Source: an uncultured Bradyrhizobium sp.
GTDB taxonomy: Bacteria; Pseudomonadota; Alphaproteobacteria; Rhizobiales; Xanthobacteraceae
Assembly: GCF_947648125.1 (NCBI RefSeq)
Contig: NZ_CANSMR010000002.1
Location: 1-64,000 of the forward strand
Direction: 5' to 3'
Length of the DNA stretch: 64,000 bases
Part shown: positions 49,413 to 58,232 of the stretch, piece after piece
Layout: each line of letters opens with the position of its first letter
Numbering within the stretch: position 1 is the stretch's first letter
Notes under the pieces: model-generated
What the model saw: only the letters and a program-made list of their open reading frames with translations
What the model was told of the DNA's origin: nothing
Databases searched by the model: none
Made by a program: the position numbers and the translations under genes

Positions 49413-50546
49413 TCACCTCGGAGCGATGTCACCGCGCGCCCAACCGGCGCGCGTTTTCGTTTTGAAATCCTCGAAGGTGCCGTTTGCCACCGCGTCGCGG
49501 ATGCCCTGCATCAGCTCTTGGTAATAGGCGACGTTGATTTCGGACAGCAGCATTGCCCCAAGTGTTTCGCCGGCGCGCACCAGATGGTGCAGATAGGCGC
49601 GCGAATAGCTGCGCGCCGCCGGCCACGTGCTCTCTTCATCGAGCGGACGCGGATCGTCGATGTGCCGGGCATTGCGCAGGTTGATCTGCCCGAACCGCGT
49701 GAACGTCATGCCGTGGCGTCCGTTCCGTGTCGGCATCACACAGTCGAACATGTCGACGCCACGCGCCACCGCCTCCAGAATGTCCTCCGGCGTGCCGACG
49801 CCCATCAGATAGCGCGGCCGATCGGACGGCAGCGCCGGCGCGGTCTCCTCGATCATCGACAGCATCACCGCCTGCGGCTCGCCGACCGCCAACCCGCCGA
49901 TCGCATACCCGTGAAAGCCAATGTCCGTCAGCCCGTGCGCGCTGGCGTGGCGGAAATCGGGGATGTCACCGCCCTGGACGATGCCGAACAGCATGTAGCC
50001 GTCCGGCGCGCTCTCGAAGGCACGCTTCGAGCGTTCGGCCCAGCGCAGCGACAGCTGCATCGCGCGCTCGATGTCGGCGCGCTCGGCCGGCAGCCGCACG
50101 CACTCGTCCATCTGCATCGCAATGTCGGAGCCGAGCAGCCGTTGCACCTCGATCGAGCGCTCCGGCGACAGCTCGACTTTGGCGCCGTCGATATGCGAGC
50201 GGAAGGTCACGGCCTTCTCGGTCACCTTGCGTAGCTCGGAGAGCGACATCACCTGGAAGCCGCCGGAATCCGTCAGCATCGGTCCGCCCCAGCCGGTGAA
50301 GCGCTGCAGGCCGCCGAGCGCTGCGATCCGCTCGGCGCCCGGCCGCAGCATCAGGTGATAGGTGTTACCGAGCACGATATCGGCGCCGGCATCGCGCACC
50401 TCGCGCCAATGCATGCCCTTCATCGCCCCGGCGGTACCGACCGGCATGAATGCGGGCGTCCGGACGAGGCCATGCGGCGTGGTCAGGCGCCCGGTGCGGG
50501 CGGCGCCGTCAGTCGCCAACAATTCGAAATGATTGGGAAGATTCAT
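49413..50546 (-). CDS. tgt: Queuine tRNA-ribosyltransferase (TGT) lacking zinc ligands
   Basis: 377 residues from ATG 50546 ([20 protein letters not shown]). Catalytic aspartates are present: Asp93 in [13 protein letters not shown] and Asp268 in [15 protein letters not shown]. The enzyme swaps guanine-34 of GUN-anticodon tRNAs for preQ1. All four ligands of the structural zinc (C-x-C-x2-C-x25-H) are replaced: Ser306, Trp308 and Ala311 just before YSRAYLHHL, and Ile337 in [10 protein letters not shown] where the family has HN. The fold around the site is otherwise well kept, so this looks like a zinc-free lineage variant rather than a pseudogene. queA is 4.5 kb away on the same strand. Confidence 0.95.
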
Positions 50547-50666
50547 GCCGCTGCTTATTGCGTGTCGCCGATGCCCGATCAACCCGTCGGGTAACGGCTC
50601 CCGCGCGACTTCGTGAACGCCAACGGCTGGACGGACGCTTGCCTTGAAGCGGTCCTTCCGTTAAAC

Positions 50667-50687
50667 AAAACGAAACCGTATCGTTTT
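50667..50687. promoter_or_regulatory. TetR-type operator (perfect inverted repeat) upstream of the patatin gene
   Basis: AAAACGA, seven bases (AACCGTA), TCGTTTT: a perfect 7-bp inverted repeat, 113 bp before the patatin start. A nearly identical site occurs at 52829-52849 after the TetR gene. Half-site and spacing suit a TetR dimer, and the adjacent TetR gene is the obvious ligand. Confidence 0.65.
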
Positions 50688-50800
50688 ATGTCAAGAATAT
50701 GGCGGCGGAAATGTTCCGCCGCGACGGCAATCCGCGTGAAACCTGACTGGCCGAGATGTTCCCACCCTCCAGCGCCCGGCCTGACGGCGTCCGCCATCGG

Positions 50801-51934
50801 ATGACACCCGCTCATGCGATCCGGCAAGCGGTGCTGCTGTGCGGGCTCGCCTTCGCGCTGGCGGCCTGCAGTTCGCTGCCGCGCATGCCCTACACGGCTG
50901 CCGACGCCGCCAATTCGCGGGTGCTCGATCTCGACGGGCTGCGCCGCTATGCCGACGAGCCGGCTTCCAAATTCAAACTCGAGAAGGACAACGTCGCCCC
51001 GATCAAGACCTATCTCGCCCTCTCCGGCGGCGGTGCCGACGGCGCCTATGGCGTCGGTGTCCTCAACGGCTGGACCGCGGCCGGCAACCGCCCGAGCTTC
51101 TCGGTCGTCTCCGGTGTCAGTACCGGCGGACTGATTGCGCCCTTCGCATTCCTCGGCCCGCGCTACGACGACACGCTGAGGGAGGTCTACACATCAGGCA
51201 TCGCCGAAAGCCTGCTGCAGGACCCGAGCCTGATGCGGGTGCTGTTCGGCTCGGGCCTGTTCGGCAACAAGCGGCTGCGCGAGCTGGTGGCGCGTTACGT
51301 CGGCCAGGACATCCTGAGCGAGGTGGCGCGCGAAAACGCCAAGGGCCGAAAGCTCCTGATCGTCACCACCGATCTCGACACCCAGCGCACCGTGATCTGG
51401 GACATGGGACGGATCGCCGCCGTCGGAACGCCCGAGGCGCTGCAGCTGTTTCGCGACGTGATGGCGGCCTCCGCCAGCATTCCGCTGGTGTTTCCGCCGA
51501 TCATGATCGACGCCGAGGGTCAGGGCCGCCGCTTCCAGGAGATGCATGTCGACGGCGGCGTGACCGCGCCGGTCCTGACGCTGCCGGACGCACTGCTGTT
51601 CCGCGAGCGTACCTGGCCCGCCAACGGCCGCATGAACATCTACATCCTCGTCAACAAGAAGCTCGAGGGTAACTTCGAGCTGGTGTCGAACTCCACGATC
51701 GACGTCGCCTCGCGCAGCATTTCCGCGATCACGCAGGCGCAGACGCGCTCGGTCATTCTCTCGACCTATGATTTCGCCCGCCGCAACCGGCTGGACTTCC
51801 ATCTGTCCTACATCGAGCGCGACTATCCGGCGCCGGAGACCCAGGGCTTCGACACCGCCTATATGCGCGCGCTCTACCAGCACGGCTACGAGAAGGCCGC
51901 CGCGGGGCAGGCCTGGACCGCGACGCCGCCCTGA
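50801..51934 (+). CDS. Patatin-like phospholipase, lipoprotein
   Basis: 377 residues. Lipoprotein signal peptide ends LAAC at Cys23. Patatin features: oxyanion loop LALSGGGADGAYGVGVLNG, nucleophile Ser107 in SGVSTGG, and catalytic Asp251 in MHVDGGV. It is thus a probable membrane-anchored periplasmic lipid acyl hydrolase. ATG 50801 was chosen because it gives the lipobox; an ATG at 50756 is in frame upstream. The TetR gene follows 97 bp later on the same strand, so the two probably form one regulated unit. Confidence 0.88.
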   Translation: MTPAHAIRQAVLLCGLAFALAACSSLPRMPYTAADAANSRVLDLDGLRRYADEPASKFKLEKDNVAPIKTYLALSGGGADGAYGVGVLNGWTAAGNRPSFSVVSGVSTGGLIAPFAFLGPRYDDTLREVYTSGIAESLLQDPSLMRVLFGSGLFGNKRLRELVARYVGQDILSEVARENAKGRKLLIVTTDLDTQRTVIWDMGRIAAVGTPEALQLFRDVMAASASIPLVFPPIMIDAEGQGRRFQEMHVDGGVTAPVLTLPDALLFRERTWPANGRMNIYILVNKKLEGNFELVSNSTIDVASRSISAITQAQTRSVILSTYDFARRNRLDFHLSYIERDYPAPETQGFDTAYMRALYQHGYEKAAAGQAWTATPP

Positions 51935-52031
51935 GCGGGCCAGCTCCCGGTACCGCCGAATGGACGAATCCGCATTGCGCGGGTTATAGACCGGACAGAC
52001 CCGTCCGAACGCACAACGAGATGAATGGGCA

Positions 52032-52769
52032 ATGGGATTGACGGCAACCAAGGCCAAGACGGCCAGGCGCGGCGTGATCAAGTCACGCGGCGGCCGGCCG
52101 ACCCGGGATGCTGCGATCGAGCGCGACCAGCGGCTGATCGAGGTCGCCACGCGCCTGTTCCTTGAGCGCGGCTTCGATGCGACGTCGATCGACGCCGTGG
52201 CCGAGGCCGCCCGCGTCAGCAAGCCCACCGTCTACGGACAGTATGGCGACAAGCGCGGCCTGTTCACCGCGGTGCTCAGGCGCGAAATCGAGCGCTGGCT
52301 TGCCCCGCTCGCCGCCGCGGCGGCCGAAGCGCAGGCCGGCGGCAGCTGCGATGGTTCGGTCGAGGAACGGCTGATCGAGCTCGGGCGCCAGCTGCTGGTG
52401 CTGAACTGCAGCGCCGACTCCATCGCCTTCAGCCGGATCCTGACCGCGCAGGCGATCAATTTCCCCGAGGTCGCCAAGCTTGCCGTCGACGAAGGCTGGT
52501 CGAAAGCGGTGTCGACGACGGCGGATTTCTTCGACCATCTGGTCGACAATGGCGCCCTCGACCTCGAGGACACGACGATCGCGGCCGAGACCTTCCTCAA
52601 CATGGTGGTCGGCCACACCCACCGGATGGCGACATTCGGGATTGTAATCGACATGAAGGCCGCCGTGACGCGGATGGAAGTCTCGATCCGGCTGTTCCTT
52701 GCCGGTGCCGTGGGACCGCGGGACCGGCTGCGCGACGCCGCCAAGGCACGTCGCCGGCCGGCGCGCTGA
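52032..52769 (+). CDS. TetR-family transcriptional regulator
   Basis: 245 residues. N-terminal helix-turn-helix: ATRLFLERGFDATSIDAVAE, AARVSKPTVYGQYGDKRGLF. The C-terminal part is of the AefR-like type. Likely repressor of the upstream patatin gene and of itself through the inverted repeat at 50667-50687; this is inferred from position and site symmetry. Confidence 0.9.
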   Translation: MGLTATKAKTARRGVIKSRGGRPTRDAAIERDQRLIEVATRLFLERGFDATSIDAVAEAARVSKPTVYGQYGDKRGLFTAVLRREIERWLAPLAAAAAEAQAGGSCDGSVEERLIELGRQLLVLNCSADSIAFSRILTAQAINFPEVAKLAVDEGWSKAVSTTADFFDHLVDNGALDLEDTTIAAETFLNMVVGHTHRMATFGIVIDMKAAVTRMEVSIRLFLAGAVGPRDRLRDAAKARRRPAR

Positions 52770-52828
52770 CCGTTTTTATAGGATCGTTTCGTCGTCTTAC
52801 ACGTTGCTGTGATGAACCTTGAATAAAC

Positions 52829-52849
52829 AGAACGAAACCGTATTGTTTA
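52829..52849. promoter_or_regulatory. Second TetR-type operator-like repeat
   Basis: Core AACGA, AACCGTA, TTGTT: the same sequence as the site at 50667-50687 with small changes that break one base pair of the dyad. It lies after the TetR gene and about 215 bp before the PepSY-protein gene, so it might control that gene. Confidence 0.5.
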
Positions 52850-53063
52850 GTTGCAAAGAGACGCTGGGCCCGGATCAGCCCCCCAAGGGTTTTGCGTCGC
52901 CTTGTAAACTTCGACCGTCACGACGGAGCTGCCGCCATTGCTCCGCCTGAACGTTCGGCGGCCGACCTGTGACCAACAAAGGTCGGCCGCACCTTTCTCG
53001 GCCCGCCTCCTCGCTCTGCGGGCGCGGGTCATGCGCGTGCACATGTTCAATACAGGTTCGACG

Positions 53064-53681
53064 ATGAGGACAGGACGATTGCGCGCACTGAGGTATTGGG
53101 CATTAGGAACGCAGCTGCTGGCGACCGCGCTGCTGGCCCTGCCCTTCGCGTCGCCGGCCCATGCGATCTCGAGCTCGGCTGCCGCCGCGATCACCCCGCA
53201 GGACAGTGACAGCGCGCTCGACGTGCATGCGGTTCGCCGCGAGCTCGACAGCTTCCAGTCCGCCCAGATCTCGCTGCGCAAGGCGATGGCGATTGCGGAG
53301 GCACTGCACGCCGGTTCGATCACCGCCGACATCAGCTTCGACGGCGCATCGGAGCCCGCGGTCTACCGGGTCAAGACCATGCAGCAGAACCGGATCTGGC
53401 AGCATGCGATCGACGCCTCGACCGGCCAGGTGGTCGGCGGCGAGCCGCCTTCGCCGCTGGCCTCGCTCGGCGCCGAAGACCGCGACAACCTCGTCGTGCT
53501 CAGGGCGCTCCGGCATCGGCTCGCCGATGCGGTGCGTGTCGCCGAGCACACGACCTCGGGCAAGGCGATCAGCGGCGGCTTGATGCGCGAGGGCGGCAAG
53601 CTCAATTTCGTCATCGTGGTGCTGACGGGCAGCGATCTGAAAGAGGTGATCCTCGAGCCGCCCGGCGCGCGCAGGCGCTGA
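53064..53681 (+). CDS. Secreted PepSY-domain protein
   Basis: 205 residues with a signal peptide (LGTQLLATALLALPFASPAHA). A PepSY-like unit follows: ISLRKAMAIAEALHAGSITA, DISFDGASEPAVYRVKTMQQ, ending in DASTGQVVGG. A second, weaker copy may lie at the C-terminus (LADAVRVAEHTTSGKAISGG). PepSY domains occur in peptidase propeptides and regulators as inhibitory or binding modules. ATG 53064 is chosen because it gives the signal peptide. An operator-like site lies upstream at 52829. Confidence 0.7.
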   Translation: MRTGRLRALRYWALGTQLLATALLALPFASPAHAISSSAAAAITPQDSDSALDVHAVRRELDSFQSAQISLRKAMAIAEALHAGSITADISFDGASEPAVYRVKTMQQNRIWQHAIDASTGQVVGGEPPSPLASLGAEDRDNLVVLRALRHRLADAVRVAEHTTSGKAISGGLMREGGKLNFVIVVLTGSDLKEVILEPPGARRR

Positions 53682-53735
53682 GCTCGGCGCGGGCGCCGCC
53701 AGGTTCTCCCTTGCCAAGTTTTCGCCCAAAAGCCG

Positions 53736-53764
53736 TTGACGGACGCCGATCTCTGCCGCATAAG
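53736..53764 (+). promoter_or_regulatory. Promoter of the asd leader transcript
   Basis: TTGACG at 53736-53741, exactly 17 bp, then CATAAG at 53759-53764. The predicted start of transcription (about 53771) falls one or two bases before the leader ATG, so the leader mRNA would be essentially leaderless. Confidence 0.6.
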
Positions 53765-53772
53765 TCCGCACC

Positions 53773-53844
53773 ATGATCACCGCGACCAAACGCACCACCA
53801 AAACCACCAAGCCCTCTGGGGCCTCGGGAGGCGTGCGCGCGTAG
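53773..53844 (+). CDS. Putative Thr/Lys-rich leader peptide of an asd attenuator
   Basis: A 23-codon frame MITATKRTTKTTKPSGASGG-VRA. Codons 3-13 comprise six Thr (all ACC) and three Lys; only Ala and Arg are otherwise present. No Shine-Dalgarno precedes the ATG, but the predicted transcription start is adjacent, as in leaderless leader peptides of other alphaproteobacteria (S. meliloti trpL). A terminator follows at 53872-53904 and then asd, whose product leads to Thr and Lys. This layout is that of ribosome-mediated attenuation. Confidence 0.65.
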   Translation: MITATKRTTKTTKPSGASGGVRA

Positions 53845-53871
53845 TCGGTCGTACAGCATAATCTCTACCCG

Positions 53872-53904
53872 AAGCCCCGCCTGATGAAGGTCCGGGGCTT
53901 TTTT
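53872..53904 (+). terminator. Attenuator terminator before asd
   Basis: AAGCCCCG (53872-53879), 13-base loop, CGGGGCTT (53893-53900) and a run of six T residues, 38 bp before the asd start. A competing pairing exists: TGGGGC at 53817-53822, inside the leader frame just after the Thr/Lys codons, can pair with GCCCCG at 53874-53879 and would prevent the terminator from forming. Confidence 0.8.
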
Positions 53905-53942
53905 GTTGCCTGCGTCATGCTCAAATTCGAATGGAGGACAAA

Positions 53943-54968
53943 GTGAGTAACGATCCCGTCGTCGCGATTGTCGGCGTCACCGGCGCAGTCGGCGCCGAAT
54001 TCATCGCCACCATGGACAAGCGCGGCGTCCGCGTCGGCAAGCTGAAGGCGCTGGCGAGCGCCCGCTCGGCCGGCAAGACCGTCAGCTTCCGCGGCAAGCC
54101 GGTCGTGATCGAGGAACTGACCGAGCGCGCCTTCGAGGGCGTCGACATCGCGCTGTTCTCGGCCGGCAGCGGCATCTCGAAGAAGTTCGCACCTGTTGCC
54201 GTGAAGTCCGGCGCCGTCGTGGTCGACAATTCGTCGGCCTTCCGGATGGATCCGAATGTGCCGCTGGTGATCCCCGAGATCAACGCCAACCGCATCCGCG
54301 ACCACAAGGGCATCATCGCCAATCCAAACTGTGCCGCCATCACCGCGCTGGTGCCGCTGTGGCCGATCCACCAGAAGAACCGCATCAAGCGCGTGATCAT
54401 CTCGACTTACCAGGCCGCGAGCGGCGCGGGAGCAGCCGCGATGGAGGAGCTCGTCGAATCCACCCGCGCCAATCTCAACGGACAGGTCTACACCCCAAAG
54501 GTGATGCCGCACCCCTACGCCTTCAACCTGTTCAACCACAACACGGCCATCGATCCGGAGACCGGCTACAACGACGAAGAGACCAAGGTCATCAAGGAGA
54601 CCCACAAGATCTTCGAGGACGACAAGATCGCGGTCGGCGTCACCTGCGTGCGGGTGCCGGTGCTGCGCGCGCATTGCGAGGCGATCACCTTCGAATGCGA
54701 GAAGCCGATCACCGAGGACCAGGTGCGCGCGATCATGGCGCAGGCGCCGGGCGTCAAGATCGTCGACGATCGCGCGAAGAACTACTTCCCGATGCCGGTC
54801 GACGCCTCCGGCCAGGACGACGTGCTGGTCGGCCGCATCCGCAAGGATCTCAGCGACCCCAGCGGGCACTCGATCTCGATATTCGTCGCGGCCGATCAGC
54901 TGCTCAAGGGCGCCGCCTTGAACGCGGTGCAGATCGCCGAGCTGCTGCCCGAACGCGCGATGGCGTGA
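53943..54968 (+). CDS. asd: Aspartate-semialdehyde dehydrogenase
   Basis: 341 residues. NADP-binding VAIVGVTGAVGAEF at the N-terminus, catalytic Cys130 in IIANPNCAAITAL, and the downstream substrate segment MPHPYAFNLFNHN. It reduces aspartyl phosphate to aspartate semialdehyde, the branch point to Lys/DAP, Thr, Met and Ile. The GTG at 53943 has a GGAGG at the ideal distance; the in-frame ATG at 53931 overlaps that Shine-Dalgarno, so GTG is preferred. The leader peptide and terminator upstream suggest transcription control by charged tRNA-Thr/Lys. Confidence 0.95.
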   Translation: MSNDPVVAIVGVTGAVGAEFIATMDKRGVRVGKLKALASARSAGKTVSFRGKPVVIEELTERAFEGVDIALFSAGSGISKKFAPVAVKSGAVVVDNSSAFRMDPNVPLVIPEINANRIRDHKGIIANPNCAAITALVPLWPIHQKNRIKRVIISTYQAASGAGAAAMEELVESTRANLNGQVYTPKVMPHPYAFNLFNHNTAIDPETGYNDEETKVIKETHKIFEDDKIAVGVTCVRVPVLRAHCEAITFECEKPITEDQVRAIMAQAPGVKIVDDRAKNYFPMPVDASGQDDVLVGRIRKDLSDPSGHSISIFVAADQLLKGAALNAVQIAELLPERAMA

Positions 54969-54973
54969 GAAGA

Positions 54974-55021
54974 CGAACTGCGCAGTTCGTAGGGTGGTTA
55001 GCGAAGCGTGACCCACCCTAC
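54974..55021. repeat. Palindromes between asd and queA, including a GTAGGGTGG-type repeat
   Basis: CGAACTGCGCAGTTCG (54974-54989) is a perfect 16-bp palindrome. Next, GTAGGGTGG...CCACCCTAC (54989-55021) is a hairpin with TTAGCGAAGCGTGAC in its loop, a dispersed element familiar from Bradyrhizobium. The queA stop codon (55018-55020) lies inside the hairpin arm. Confidence 0.7.
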
Positions 55022-56094
55022 GCCTTTGCCCGGAACAGCAAACACGCATCGCCGTACGAATAGAACCGGTAGCCGTTGCTGATCGCGTGCGCGTAGGCGT
55101 TCTGCATCGTCTCGAGGCCGGAGAAGGCCGAGACCAGCATGAACAGCGTCGAACGCGGCAGATGGAAGTTCGTCAGCAGGATATCGACCGCGCGGAAGCG
55201 ATAGCCCGGCGTGATGAAGATCGAGGTTTCCGCCGCAAACGGCTGGATGGTGCCGTCGGCATTTGCGGCACTCTCCAGCAGCCGCAGCGATGTGGTGCCG
55301 ATCGCGACGATCCGGCCGCCCTTTGCGCGCGCGGCGTTCAAGGCAGAAGCGGTCTCGGCGCTGATGCAGCCCCATTCGGCATGCATCTTGTGTTCGGAGG
55401 TTTCGTCCACTTTGACCGGCAGGAATGTCCCTGCCCCGACATGCAGCGTCAGGCGATGCAACTCGACGCCGCGGCTCTTCAGCGCGGCTTCCAGCGCCGG
55501 CGTGAAATGCAGCCCCGCCGTCGGTGCTGCGACCGCGCCTTCATTGGCGGCGAACATGGTCTGGTAGTCGCTGACGTCCTTCTCGTCGGGCGTGCGCTTG
55601 GAGGCGATGTAGGGCGGTAGCGGCGTGGCGCCGACATCGGCGATGGCCTGGTCGAGCACCGGACCATGGAACGAGAATGACAGCGTCACCTCGCCCTCCT
55701 GCCCCTTAGCTTCGACCTCTGCATCGAGATTGCCGAGCAGGCAGACCTTGCCCTCATTGCCGAAGCGGATGGTGTCGCCGGGCGCAAGCTTCTTCGCCGG
55801 CTTCACCAGCGCCTGCCAGCGCGAGCCGTCGAGCCGCTTGATCAGGGTCGCCTCGATCTTCGGCTCGGTCTCGCGCCCGATCCGGCGGCCCTTGAGCTGG
55901 GCCGCGATCACCTTGGTGTCGTTGACGACGATCTGGTCGCCCGCCTCCAGCCAATGCGGCAGGTCGGCAATCGTGGCGTCGCGCAGCACGCCGTCCGGAT
56001 GCACCACCAGCACCCGCGCGGAATCGCGCGGGCTCGCGGGGCGAAGCGCGATGCTCTCGGGCGGCAGTTCGAAATCGAAGAGATCGGTGCGCAT
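55018..56094 (-). CDS. queA: S-adenosylmethionine:tRNA ribosyltransferase-isomerase QueA
   Basis: 358 residues from ATG 56094: [20 protein letters not shown] at the N-terminus, then [48 protein letters not shown] (core motifs), and the C-terminal [18 protein letters not shown]. It transfers ribosyl from SAM to preQ1-34 in tRNA, the step after TGT. An ATG at 56109 adds five residues and is an alternative. Confidence 0.96.
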
Positions 56095-56109
56095 GGTGGC
56101 GATAGTCAT

Positions 56110-56224
56110 TGCCGGGCATAGCCGTTCGAAGAACGGCGTCGCTTCCGCTCGCCTATGCCCAGGCAATCCATCACTTGCGGAAGAGCGTTTAAAAAGATGG
56201 ATGCCCGGGTCAAGCCCGGGCATG
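56110..56224. repeat. Palindromic intergenic repeat (CCGGG-type) between queA and ppiB
   Basis: Contains the perfect hairpin ATGCCCGGGTCA-AGCCCGGGCAT at 56201-56223, preceded by AAAGATGG. Further upstream are GGCAATCCATCAC and GCATAGCCGTTCGAAGAACGG inverted elements. It shares its core with the repeat at 14505-14608. Confidence 0.7.
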
Positions 56225-56236
56225 ACGATCTTGATT

Positions 56237-56701
56237 TTACGCCGCGTCGGCCGCCATGCGCGCCTTGACGATCTTGTCCGGATCCTTCACCGGCTCGCCG
56301 CGCTTGATCTTGTCGACGTTCTCCATGCCCTCGGTGACCTTGCCCCAGACGGTGTACTGGCCATTGAGGAAGGAGGCGTCGTCGAAGCAGATGAAGAACT
56401 GGCTGTCGCCGGAATCCGGGCTCGCGGCGCGGGCCATCGAGGCGGTGCCGCGGACATGCGGCTCCTTGTTGAACTCGGCCTTCAGCTTCTTGCCGGAGCC
56501 GCCCATGCCGGTGCCCTGCGGGCAGCCGGTCTGCGCCATGAAGCCGTCGATCACGCGATGGAACACGATGCCGTCGTAGAAGCCTTCGCGCACCAGCTCC
56601 TTGATCCGCGCGACGTGACCGGGCGCAAGATCCGGGCGCATCTCGATCGTGACCGGGCCCTGCGTGGTTTCGAGGATCAGAGTATTTTCGGTAGCAGCCA
56701 T
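56237..56701 (-). CDS. ppiB: Cytoplasmic peptidyl-prolyl cis-trans isomerase (cyclophilin type B)
   Basis: 154 residues without a signal peptide. Cyclophilin motifs: [20 protein letters not shown] (catalytic Arg in FHRVI), [40 protein letters not shown]. It speeds proline isomerisation during protein folding. Good AGGAG ribosome-binding site. A paralogue with a signal peptide is at 57124-57687. Confidence 0.94.
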
Positions 56702-57117
56702 GCTCGCTTCTCCTGGCTTCGGGGTGGATATTTCTTGTTCCTGAACGGGATCGCGAATGGGCGGCCCGCAACCGCGCCGCCCAGGCTCTCGGTAAATGGC
56801 ATCGGCGTGCAGCGTTGCAACGCCTCCATCACGGCGACCCGGTACGCAATTCGGTCGTTGTCGGTCGCCTCCTGCGATTCATAGCTGATCCTGGGATGCC
56901 CGAGGATCGCGCCCTCACGGTTGAAGCTGACAATGACGGTAATGTCGATCGGAGCCGCCTTGTCCGCCGGCGGCGGCCGCCAGCAGCGATGGATCGCAAG
57001 AACAACGTCCTTGATCGTATTGAGTTGCTCCGGCTCGGCCGCCACCGATCCGGTCAACGCGAGCCACACCACGAGCGGCGCGGCGAACCAGGCAAGTGGT
57101 TTGCTGCGCGCCGCCAT
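56677..57117 (-). CDS. Exported protein resembling a TonB C-terminal-type domain
   Basis: 146 residues: signal peptide (WFAAPLVVWLALTGSVAAEP), then VVLAIHRCWRPPPADKAAPI, ITVIVSFNREGAILGHPRIS and VMEALQRCTPMPFTESL. The VxVSFNrxGxlLGxPRI pattern resembles the TonB C-terminal/TolA-like domain of many alphaproteobacterial periplasmic proteins. Its last 25 bases overlap the ppiB start, so it belongs to the coaD-ppi-ppiB gene cluster. Confidence 0.75.
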   Translation of the reverse strand: MAARSKPLAWFAAPLVVWLALTGSVAAEPEQLNTIKDVVLAIHRCWRPPPADKAAPIDITVIVSFNREGAILGHPRISYESQEATDNDRIAYRVAVMEALQRCTPMPFTESLGGAVAGRPFAIPFRNKKYPPRSQEKRAWLLPKIL

Positions 57118-57123
57118 CGCCGA

Positions 57124-57687
57124 TCACTTGATGTCGGATGCGACCTGCACCTTCACCATCTTGTCGGGATCGGTGACGGCGCCGCCGGGCGAGCCCGCGG
57201 GAGCCTTCTTCAGCTTGTCGACCACGTCCATGCCCGACACCACCTCGCCGACCACGGTGTACTGGCCATTGAGGCTCGATCCGTCGGCGAACATGATGAA
57301 GAACTGCGAATTGGCGCTGTCGACAGAGTCGCCGCGCCGGGCCATGCCGACGATGCCGCGCTTGAACGGAACCTGCGAGAATTCCTGCTTCAGGTTCGGA
57401 TATTTCGAGCCGCCGGTGCCGTTGAAGTTCTGGCCGTCGCCGGTCTGCGCCATGAAGCCATCCATCACGCGATGGAACGGCACGCTGTTGTAGAAGCCCT
57501 CGCGCGCCAGCTGCTTGATGCGCTCGGCGTGCTGGGGCGCGATGTCGGTGCGCAGCTTGATGACGATGCGGCCCTTGGTGGTGTCGATCACGATCGCATT
57601 GGCCTTGTCGAGATTGGCAGGCAGCGGCTGCGCGACCGCAGGCACGACGCAGAGCAGCGCGGCAACGAATGCAAGAATGCGGATCAT
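57124..57687 (-). CDS. Periplasmic peptidyl-prolyl cis-trans isomerase (cyclophilin)
   Basis: 187 residues. Signal peptide MIRILAFVAALLCVVPAVAQ, then cyclophilin motifs [40 protein letters not shown] and LNGQYTVVGEVVSGMDVVDK. PpiA-type folding factor of the periplasm. ATG 57687 gives the signal peptide and has GGAG upstream. It is followed by the exported protein at 56677 after 6 bp. Confidence 0.94.
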   Translation of the reverse strand: MIRILAFVAALLCVVPAVAQPLPANLDKANAIVIDTTKGRIVIKLRTDIAPQHAERIKQLAREGFYNSVPFHRVMDGFMAQTGDGQNFNGTGGSKYPNLKQEFSQVPFKRGIVGMARRGDSVDSANSQFFIMFADGSSLNGQYTVVGEVVSGMDVVDKLKKAPAGSPGGAVTDPDKMVKVQVASDIK

Positions 57688-57734
57688 GGAAACTCCGGAC
57701 CTCTGGATGTTCTGGGTGTGGCAGGCCGCCGGCA

Positions 57735-58232
57735 TCAGCCGGCGAACTTGGCCTTCAGGCTAGCGGCGACTGATGACGGCACGAATGCAGAGAAGTCGCC
57801 GCCCATCTGGGCGATTTGGCGCACCAGTGTGGCGGTGATCGGGCGGACCGCGACCGACGCCGGAACGAACACGGTATGCACCTCGGGCGCCATGGCCTCG
57901 TTCATGCCGGCCAGCTGCATCTCGTAGTCGAGATCGGTGCCGTCGCGCAGGCCGCGAATCATGATGGTGGCACTGAGCTTGCGCGCCGCGGTCACCGTCA
58001 GATTGTCATAGGTGGTGCAATCGAAGGCGCAGCCCGCCTGCTGGGCGATCGGACCGCACACCTCGCGCAGCATGTCCAGCCGTTCCTCCGTCGAGAACAG
58101 CGGCTTTTTGCCGGCATGGATGGCGACGGCGACGACCAGGCGGTCGCACAGGCCGACGGCCTGCCGGACCACGTCCAGATGGCCGTTGGTGACGGGATCG
58201 AAGGAGCCGGGATAGAGCGCGATACGGGACAT
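57735..58232 (-). CDS. coaD: Phosphopantetheine adenylyltransferase CoaD
   Basis: 165 residues starting [20 protein letters not shown], the nucleotidyltransferase motif with His18 of the T/HxGH site. Later motifs are [19 protein letters not shown] and [20 protein letters not shown]. It makes dephospho-CoA from ATP and phosphopantetheine. ATG 58232 has AGGAGGG at an ideal distance. The frame stays open for 2.3 kb further upstream, but that portion is antisense to kup and is not part of the gene. Confidence 0.97.

Follow-up and report, generated by a model that had tools for sequence, protein, structure and literature searches.

A probable threonine/lysine attenuator before a paralogous asd gene in Bradyrhizobium, and similar leaders elsewhere in the order

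Aspartate-semialdehyde dehydrogenase (Asd) catalyses a step shared by the routes to threonine, lysine, methionine, isoleucine and diaminopimelate. Why should a short open reading frame (ORF) crowded with Thr and Lys codons stand between a promoter and a gene for this enzyme? The arrangement was found in a 64,000-nucleotide stretch of DNA from an uncultured Bradyrhizobium sp. (the window, to which all coordinates refer), and an earlier note had read it as an attenuator controlling asd. The leader does precede an asd gene, but that gene is a paralogue and not the canonical copy. We regard it as highly likely that this paralogue is controlled by ribosome-mediated transcription attenuation sensing charged tRNA-Thr and tRNA-Lys, and the Thr/Lys attenuator is real and conserved and very probably works.

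Layout and conservation of the leader

The promoter, the Thr/Lys ORF, the stem with its T residues and asd all lie, on the + strand, exactly where the earlier note had placed them. The promoter, recognised by sequence and conservation, consists of TTGACG (53736-53741), a 17-bp spacer and CATAAG (53759-53764), and since the ATG of the leader (53773) follows only 8 nt 3' of this -10 hexamer, the transcript is predicted to start at or beside that ATG. The leader ORF itself (53773-53844; MITATKRTTKTTKPSGASGGVRA and a stop) has 23 codons, is apparently leaderless and carries six Thr and three Lys residues in codons 3-13. Beyond it, a predicted intrinsic terminator (53872-53904) is formed by an 8-bp stem of AAGCCCCG (53872-53879) and CGGGGCTT (53893-53900) with six T residues at 53899-53904, and is followed by a Shine-Dalgarno sequence, GGAGG (53933-53937), and by the asd paralogue (53943-54968; GTG start at 53943), whose product scores above the cut-off of both NF011456 and TIGR01296. 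An in-frame ATG at 53931 overlaps the Shine-Dalgarno sequence. This is the layout of an attenuator: a short ORF rich in codons for the end products of the pathway beside a promoter, and an intrinsic terminator between leader and structural gene. A generic motif scan named neither the terminator nor the promoter, the 13-base loop of the one and the final G of CATAAG in the other falling outside its limits. The whole leader folds with no more than ordinary energy (z -1.02), which counts against the attenuator reading; Rfam covariance models gave no match at E up to 1 in positions 50000-58000, and an Rfam scan of 20 relatives found no relevant family. The paralogue sits between two opposite-strand queuosine genes, Tgt (49413-50582) and QueA (55018-56223), which bound the segment 49413-56223; patatin, TetR and PepSY genes occupy the interval between Tgt and asd.

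How widely is this arrangement kept? The best 80 of 502 protein relatives were retained (78 titled Bradyrhizobium, one Bradyrhizobiaceae and one Frankia sp. RB7), and the leader peptide is present at all 80 of these named loci, in the form M[FI]TTTKRTTKTT[TK]xxGA[RS]GGVRA with variation, L046 being the most divergent. The window, 74 leaders from the named loci and three from other groups make up 78 distinct leaders, 75 of which show TTGA[CT] followed 16-18 bp on by CATA, with an exact CATAAG in 74; L171, L261 and L262, from outside Bradyrhizobium, have TTGACG with CATA at closer spacing. An SD-like 4-mer 5' of the leader ATG occurs in none of the 78, and this absence, like the promoter spacing, fits a leaderless ORF. 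Lys10 (AAA) and Thr11 (ACC; 53800-53805 for the pair), the predicted deciding codons, are identical in all 73 ungapped 23-codon leaders and Thr12 in 71 of them, codons 3-5, 8, 9 and 13 being variable; in the downstream segment termed region 2 below, 72 of the 73 keep the codon GGG and all 73 keep GCC, silent positions included. Conservation in close relatives had been named as a check on the original reading, and the Thr/Lys codons, the promoter and the terminator are indeed kept. At the level of the genus, a DNA search matched the region in 113 of 117 genomes, G053 giving a stray match only; these matches concern the region at large.

The distance between leader and gene is not uniform. At 15 of the 80 loci (L038, L039, L041, L043, L048, L055, L057, L059, L061, L069, L075, L103, L105, L108 and L110) the leader ATG lies 209-223 nt 5' of asd, as against 158-180 in the rest. 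Eight of these 15 have an alike translation (..HDPEKW..PVFRS..) 3' of the terminator, so that the extra length looks like an inserted repeat element.

Competing stems and a computed ribosome-dependent switch

Which structures could a ribosome on this ORF choose between? Region 2 (TGGGGCCTCGGG, 53817-53828), which lies within the leader ORF and forms the 5' strand of the antiterminator, can pair at 11 of 12 positions with region 3 (CCCGAAGCCCCG, 53868-53879), the segment common to antiterminator and terminator; alternatively, it can pair with region 1 (GCCC, 53811-53814), the anti-antiterminator partner of 53819-53822. The pairing of TGGGGC (53817-53822) with the terminator arm, in which the earlier note had seen an antiterminator, is thus confirmed (the partner being 53874-53879) and reaches further than proposed. 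From the promoter, the ORF, the pairing segments, their conservation and the switch computed below, we infer the start site, ribosome stalling, termination and response to Thr and Lys as follows. RNA polymerase would start at or beside the leader ATG, and a ribosome would load on the leaderless ORF. When Thr and Lys are plentiful, the ribosome would move beyond codon 12, the terminator at 53872-53904 would form, and transcription would stop before the second asd. When Thr or Lys is short, it would wait at Lys10/Thr11 and cover region 1, leaving region 2 free for region 3; with these two paired, it is proposed, the terminator could not form and asd would be transcribed.

The stems were examined in alignment A1, which holds 35 of the 78 distinct leaders. 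In these 35 sequences 97.1% of cells pair in the terminator stem (14.6-72.9% in slid versions) and 94.8% in the six-pair core of the antiterminator (24.5-57.5% when slid), so that both pairings stand far above their slid controls. The region 1:2 stem does only slightly better than its control: in the MFTTTKRTT clade, where region 1 is GGCC and pairs one column over, 90.0% of cells pair against 81.4% when slid by one. The compensatory changes that had been hoped for in the hairpins did not appear, not one pair being altered on both sides in the three stems tested (terminator, antiterminator and region 1:2); the terminator and antiterminator stems hardly vary, so that no covariation is seen. Support for the predicted stems comes from invariance and geometry rather than from covariation.

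The dependence on ribosome position was computed by folding the window RNA with its 5' part masked by a ribosome at each A-site codon. The window's terminator has a probability of at most 0.27 for A-site codons 2-11 and of at least 0.98 from codon 12 on. Among the 78 sequences, in two of which the script misplaced the terminator arm, 65 switch for the last time at codons 10-14, 54 of them at codon 12, and 11 before codon 10; of these 11, four (L067, L082, L107 and L171) are without suppression at any codon. A mutually exclusive antiterminator tied to ribosome position is thus found, by computation, in the window and in 65 of the 78 in all. A broader measure of the arm gives a switch in 60-69 of the 78 across five assumed ribosome edges, with values for the window itself of only 0.16, 0.48 and 0.56 at codons 9, 10 and 11. 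When codons 9-12 are compared at the default edge, the terminator is least probable at codon 10 or 11 in 61 of the 78; the best codon moves toward 12 if the edge is taken 1-2 nt shorter, that is, by about one codon with the assumed edge. For the majority of MFTTTKRTT-clade sequences, a ribosome stalled at any of codons 2-9 lets region 1 pair with region 2, which favours the terminator, and the antiterminator wins only at Lys10/Thr11(/Thr12); in these sequences only Lys10/Thr11(/Thr12) would therefore count, and they are the invariant codons.

How much of this could the peptide alone produce? When the same peptide was re-coded synonymously with ordinary codon usage, 100 trials on each of four sequences still gave the switch 25, 34, 8 and 3 times; the computed switch is therefore in part a by-product of the Gly-rich end of the peptide and is by itself no proof. 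Beyond the genus, the same folding was applied to 14 leaders of other families, of which 11 belong to the clade of the paralogue: eight show some suppression, although for one of these, L142, the scored hairpin is a different one, adjoining the asd start; L270 is weak, and five (L171 of G189, L268, L271, L276 and L286) show none. Leader and intrinsic terminator occur together in L171, L261, L262 and L268 as well. With the masking folds and the conservation taken together, the mechanism claimed in the earlier note is supported computationally.

Paralogous and canonical asd genes, and other readings of the leader

The gene in the window is the second asd of its genome, the canonical alphaproteobacterial copy being 43% identical to it in protein and lacking a Thr/Lys leader in the 400 bases upstream of it. 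Nor did a search of the same genome for TTKTT-type patterns, narrow as the pattern is, reveal a second Thr/Lys leader: the other six of its seven sites, judged on about 260 bases each, lie in other frames and contexts. In a quick tree of 91 proteins, in which L113-L116, L033, L046, L063, L068 and L108 are paralogues, the window Asd falls outside the canonical clade, in a clade of its own (SH-aLRT 99) with genomes of scattered families. A search of 100 genomes of the family found copies with 57% or more identity to it in only two of 47 genera, so that Rhodopseudomonas and Nitrobacter, which the earlier note had put forward for comparison, may lack the paralogue, and a survey of the class found members of its clade (57-78% identity) in 13 of 190 genomes. 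Upstream of eight of these 13 lies a cluster in which Thr/Lys make up 6 or more of 11 residues; one more, L267, shows a sub-threshold look-alike, and four show none. As judged by these searches, the paralogue is patchily distributed; should it have spread by transfer, a regulatory leader would have travelled with a housekeeping gene. Among the canonical asd regions of the window's family, 23 were examined (L119-L141, a subset of the family matches); their best cluster, reached in one region, is 6 of 11. The enzyme being a second, paralogous Asd, the leader probably serves to raise aspartate-semialdehyde capacity when it is needed, with the leader-free canonical asd giving a base level.

Are Thr/Lys leaders then confined to the paralogue? 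The order was surveyed upstream of the best asd match in 105 of 140 matched genomes (those left out being five that are Bradyrhizobium or G297 and 30 others), a cluster being defined as at least 7 Thr/Lys among 11 residues of a short ORF. Such clusters occur in 62 of the 105 regions and in 25 of 42 families, and these 62 leaders sit before canonical asd; the controls gave none in 105 regions on the reverse strand and none in each of five shuffles. When all 190 amino-acid pairs were ranked by enrichment in short ORFs, Thr+Lys came first with 62 regions and Ala+Thr second with 48. Four f4 matches reaching 6 of 11 were rejected, as they belong to a long upstream ORF and fail the 7-of-11 threshold. 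With regard to the RNA, a crude finder, some of whose calls are doubtful, placed a U-tract terminator in 8 of 73 order leaders (cluster of at least 6), and RNAalifold on alignment A2 (37 of 66 canonical leaders) returned no consensus pairs. In 35 of the 62, the leader stop is followed by a CTCTCCCC-type segment and the canonical asd start is also preceded by one of GGGGAGAG type; tests of long-range pairing gave a mean z of -1.11, with 18 of 62 loci within about the best 5% of their own distribution. The CTCTCCCC/GGGGAGAG layout is a possible candidate for a terminator-less riboregulator and, on these results, only a lead. Three further Thr/Lys leaders lie before asd genes outside the window's clade, in L170 (G160 C3:2377017), L276 (G408) and L286 (G400). 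Two of these three come from orders of the class other than the window's, and in L286 a clear hairpin is followed by a T tail (GGCGGGCCTTTT). In G272, each of two asd copies (L172 and L228) has a Thr-rich leader-like ORF upstream.

What could unite these leaders? We lean, with some reserve, towards the view that sensing of Thr/Lys codons at asd is general in the order and in part of the wider class, where it would act as an OR gate for two amino acids placed at the branch point. The sensor would have arisen or been taken up again in two or more Asd lineages, with two different RNA outputs: an intrinsic terminator in part of the patchy paralogue clade, and a terminator-less CTCTCCCC/GGGGAG/GGGGAGAG layout, perhaps based on translation or Rho, before canonical asd. 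Bradyrhizobium would then bear the sensor on the paralogue, its canonical copy having lost or lacked it.

Might the leader be conserved for reasons unrelated to the supply of Thr and Lys? The RNA could be kept as an AC-rich, unstructured 5' end that aids leaderless translation, or as an sRNA, the Thr/Lys codons being a by-product. Runs of ACC and AAA are AC-rich and mostly unpaired in the window fold, and a terminated leader would be an sRNA, like rnTrpL, the trp attenuator RNA described for S. meliloti in the available passages of PMC10117765. Moreover, the non-majority codon types in codons 3-13 of Bradyrhizobium are 7 synonymous and 21 non-synonymous, with no sign of strong codon-level constraint; third positions, on the other hand, hold 63 of the 126 minority letters there. 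An AC-rich tract should also yield Pro, His, Gln and Asn in other frames, whereas Thr+Lys ranks first of the 190 pairs and is found neither on the reverse strand nor in shuffles. That the gene encodes the common step to Thr and Lys also speaks for sensing, although this match is not independent, because asd was the anchor of the search. Overall, we judge the by-product explanation improbable. We give slightly less credence still to an action of the peptide itself that would not depend on the supply of Thr and Lys, whether by arresting the ribosome or, as has been claimed for peTrpL, in trans. A trans-acting leader peptide has been reported in S. meliloti (PMC7298713, in the part available), and the end GA[RS]GGVRA is nearly fixed in Bradyrhizobium; this fixed end, however, overlaps region 2 and is fixed at silent positions too, as RNA pairing predicts, and the C-terminal end differs in other families while the Thr/Lys residues stay. 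That the hairpin, some 190 bp past the stop of the PepSY-domain gene, is a mere terminator of that gene and the ORF a chance product is very improbable, given that a conserved promoter-like site separates the PepSY-domain gene from the hairpin, that leader and terminator co-occur before the paralogue in other families and that the peptide is kept at every named locus.

Comparison with known systems

How new, then, is attenuation by a Thr/Lys leader? The earlier note had held a Thr/Lys leader before asd to be undescribed, and in the literature searched, with most subscription papers lying outside it, one is reported neither from Bradyrhizobium nor before the paralogue, nor is its distribution across the order; such a leader is, however, not wholly undescribed, since the S. 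meliloti sORF SEP5, which has six codons for Thr and three for Lys and lies in the 5' UTR of a gene called 'aspartate dehydrogenase' (by inference, we take this gene to be asd), was noted in 2023 (PMC10117765, here and below from the available passages). SEP5 is translated according to Ribo-seq and Western blot, and was suggested to be a leader peptide conserved only in Sinorhizobium (PMC10117765). Its numbers of Thr and Lys codons are those of the window leader; it differs in that its cluster lies near the 3' end and that those passages give neither an RNA structure nor a mechanism, and the confinement to Sinorhizobium stated there contrasts with Thr/Lys leaders in 25 of the 42 families of the order sampled here (PMC10117765). 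The main texts of PMC1273637, PMC4842269 and PMC5082802, in the parts available and for the few terms looked for, contain no such leader. The class of mechanism is known; the pair of amino acids, the link to a paralogue and the extent across the order appear to be new, SEP5 apart, within the literature searched.

The attenuator of E. coli thrL-thrABC, whose Rfam family is named Thr_leader, reads Thr and Ile codons before thrABC, whereas the window has Lys for Ile, asd as the gene, a leaderless ORF and no Rfam match. The two would be alike in that a stall at Thr codons in a short leader picks between structures and in that two amino acids are sensed (PMC12925634, in the available passages). The trpL/rnTrpL/peTrpL system of S. 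meliloti shares with the window a leaderless leader ORF and is likewise an alphaproteobacterial transcription attenuator (PMC10117765); it differs as a trp attenuator before trpE, with functions in trans reported in the passages available. The L box, the lysine riboswitch of lysC, likewise lies in a 5' UTR and acts on this pathway, as far as the available text goes (PMC12925634). It binds lysine directly, and the window has no Rfam riboswitch match in 50000-58000. Lysine control in bacteria has been ascribed mainly to this L-box riboswitch; the Thr/Lys leader, if the attenuator reading is true, would stand against it as a codon-based sensor of lysine (plus threonine), and would offer a simple account of how the shared step is controlled in these alphaproteobacteria.
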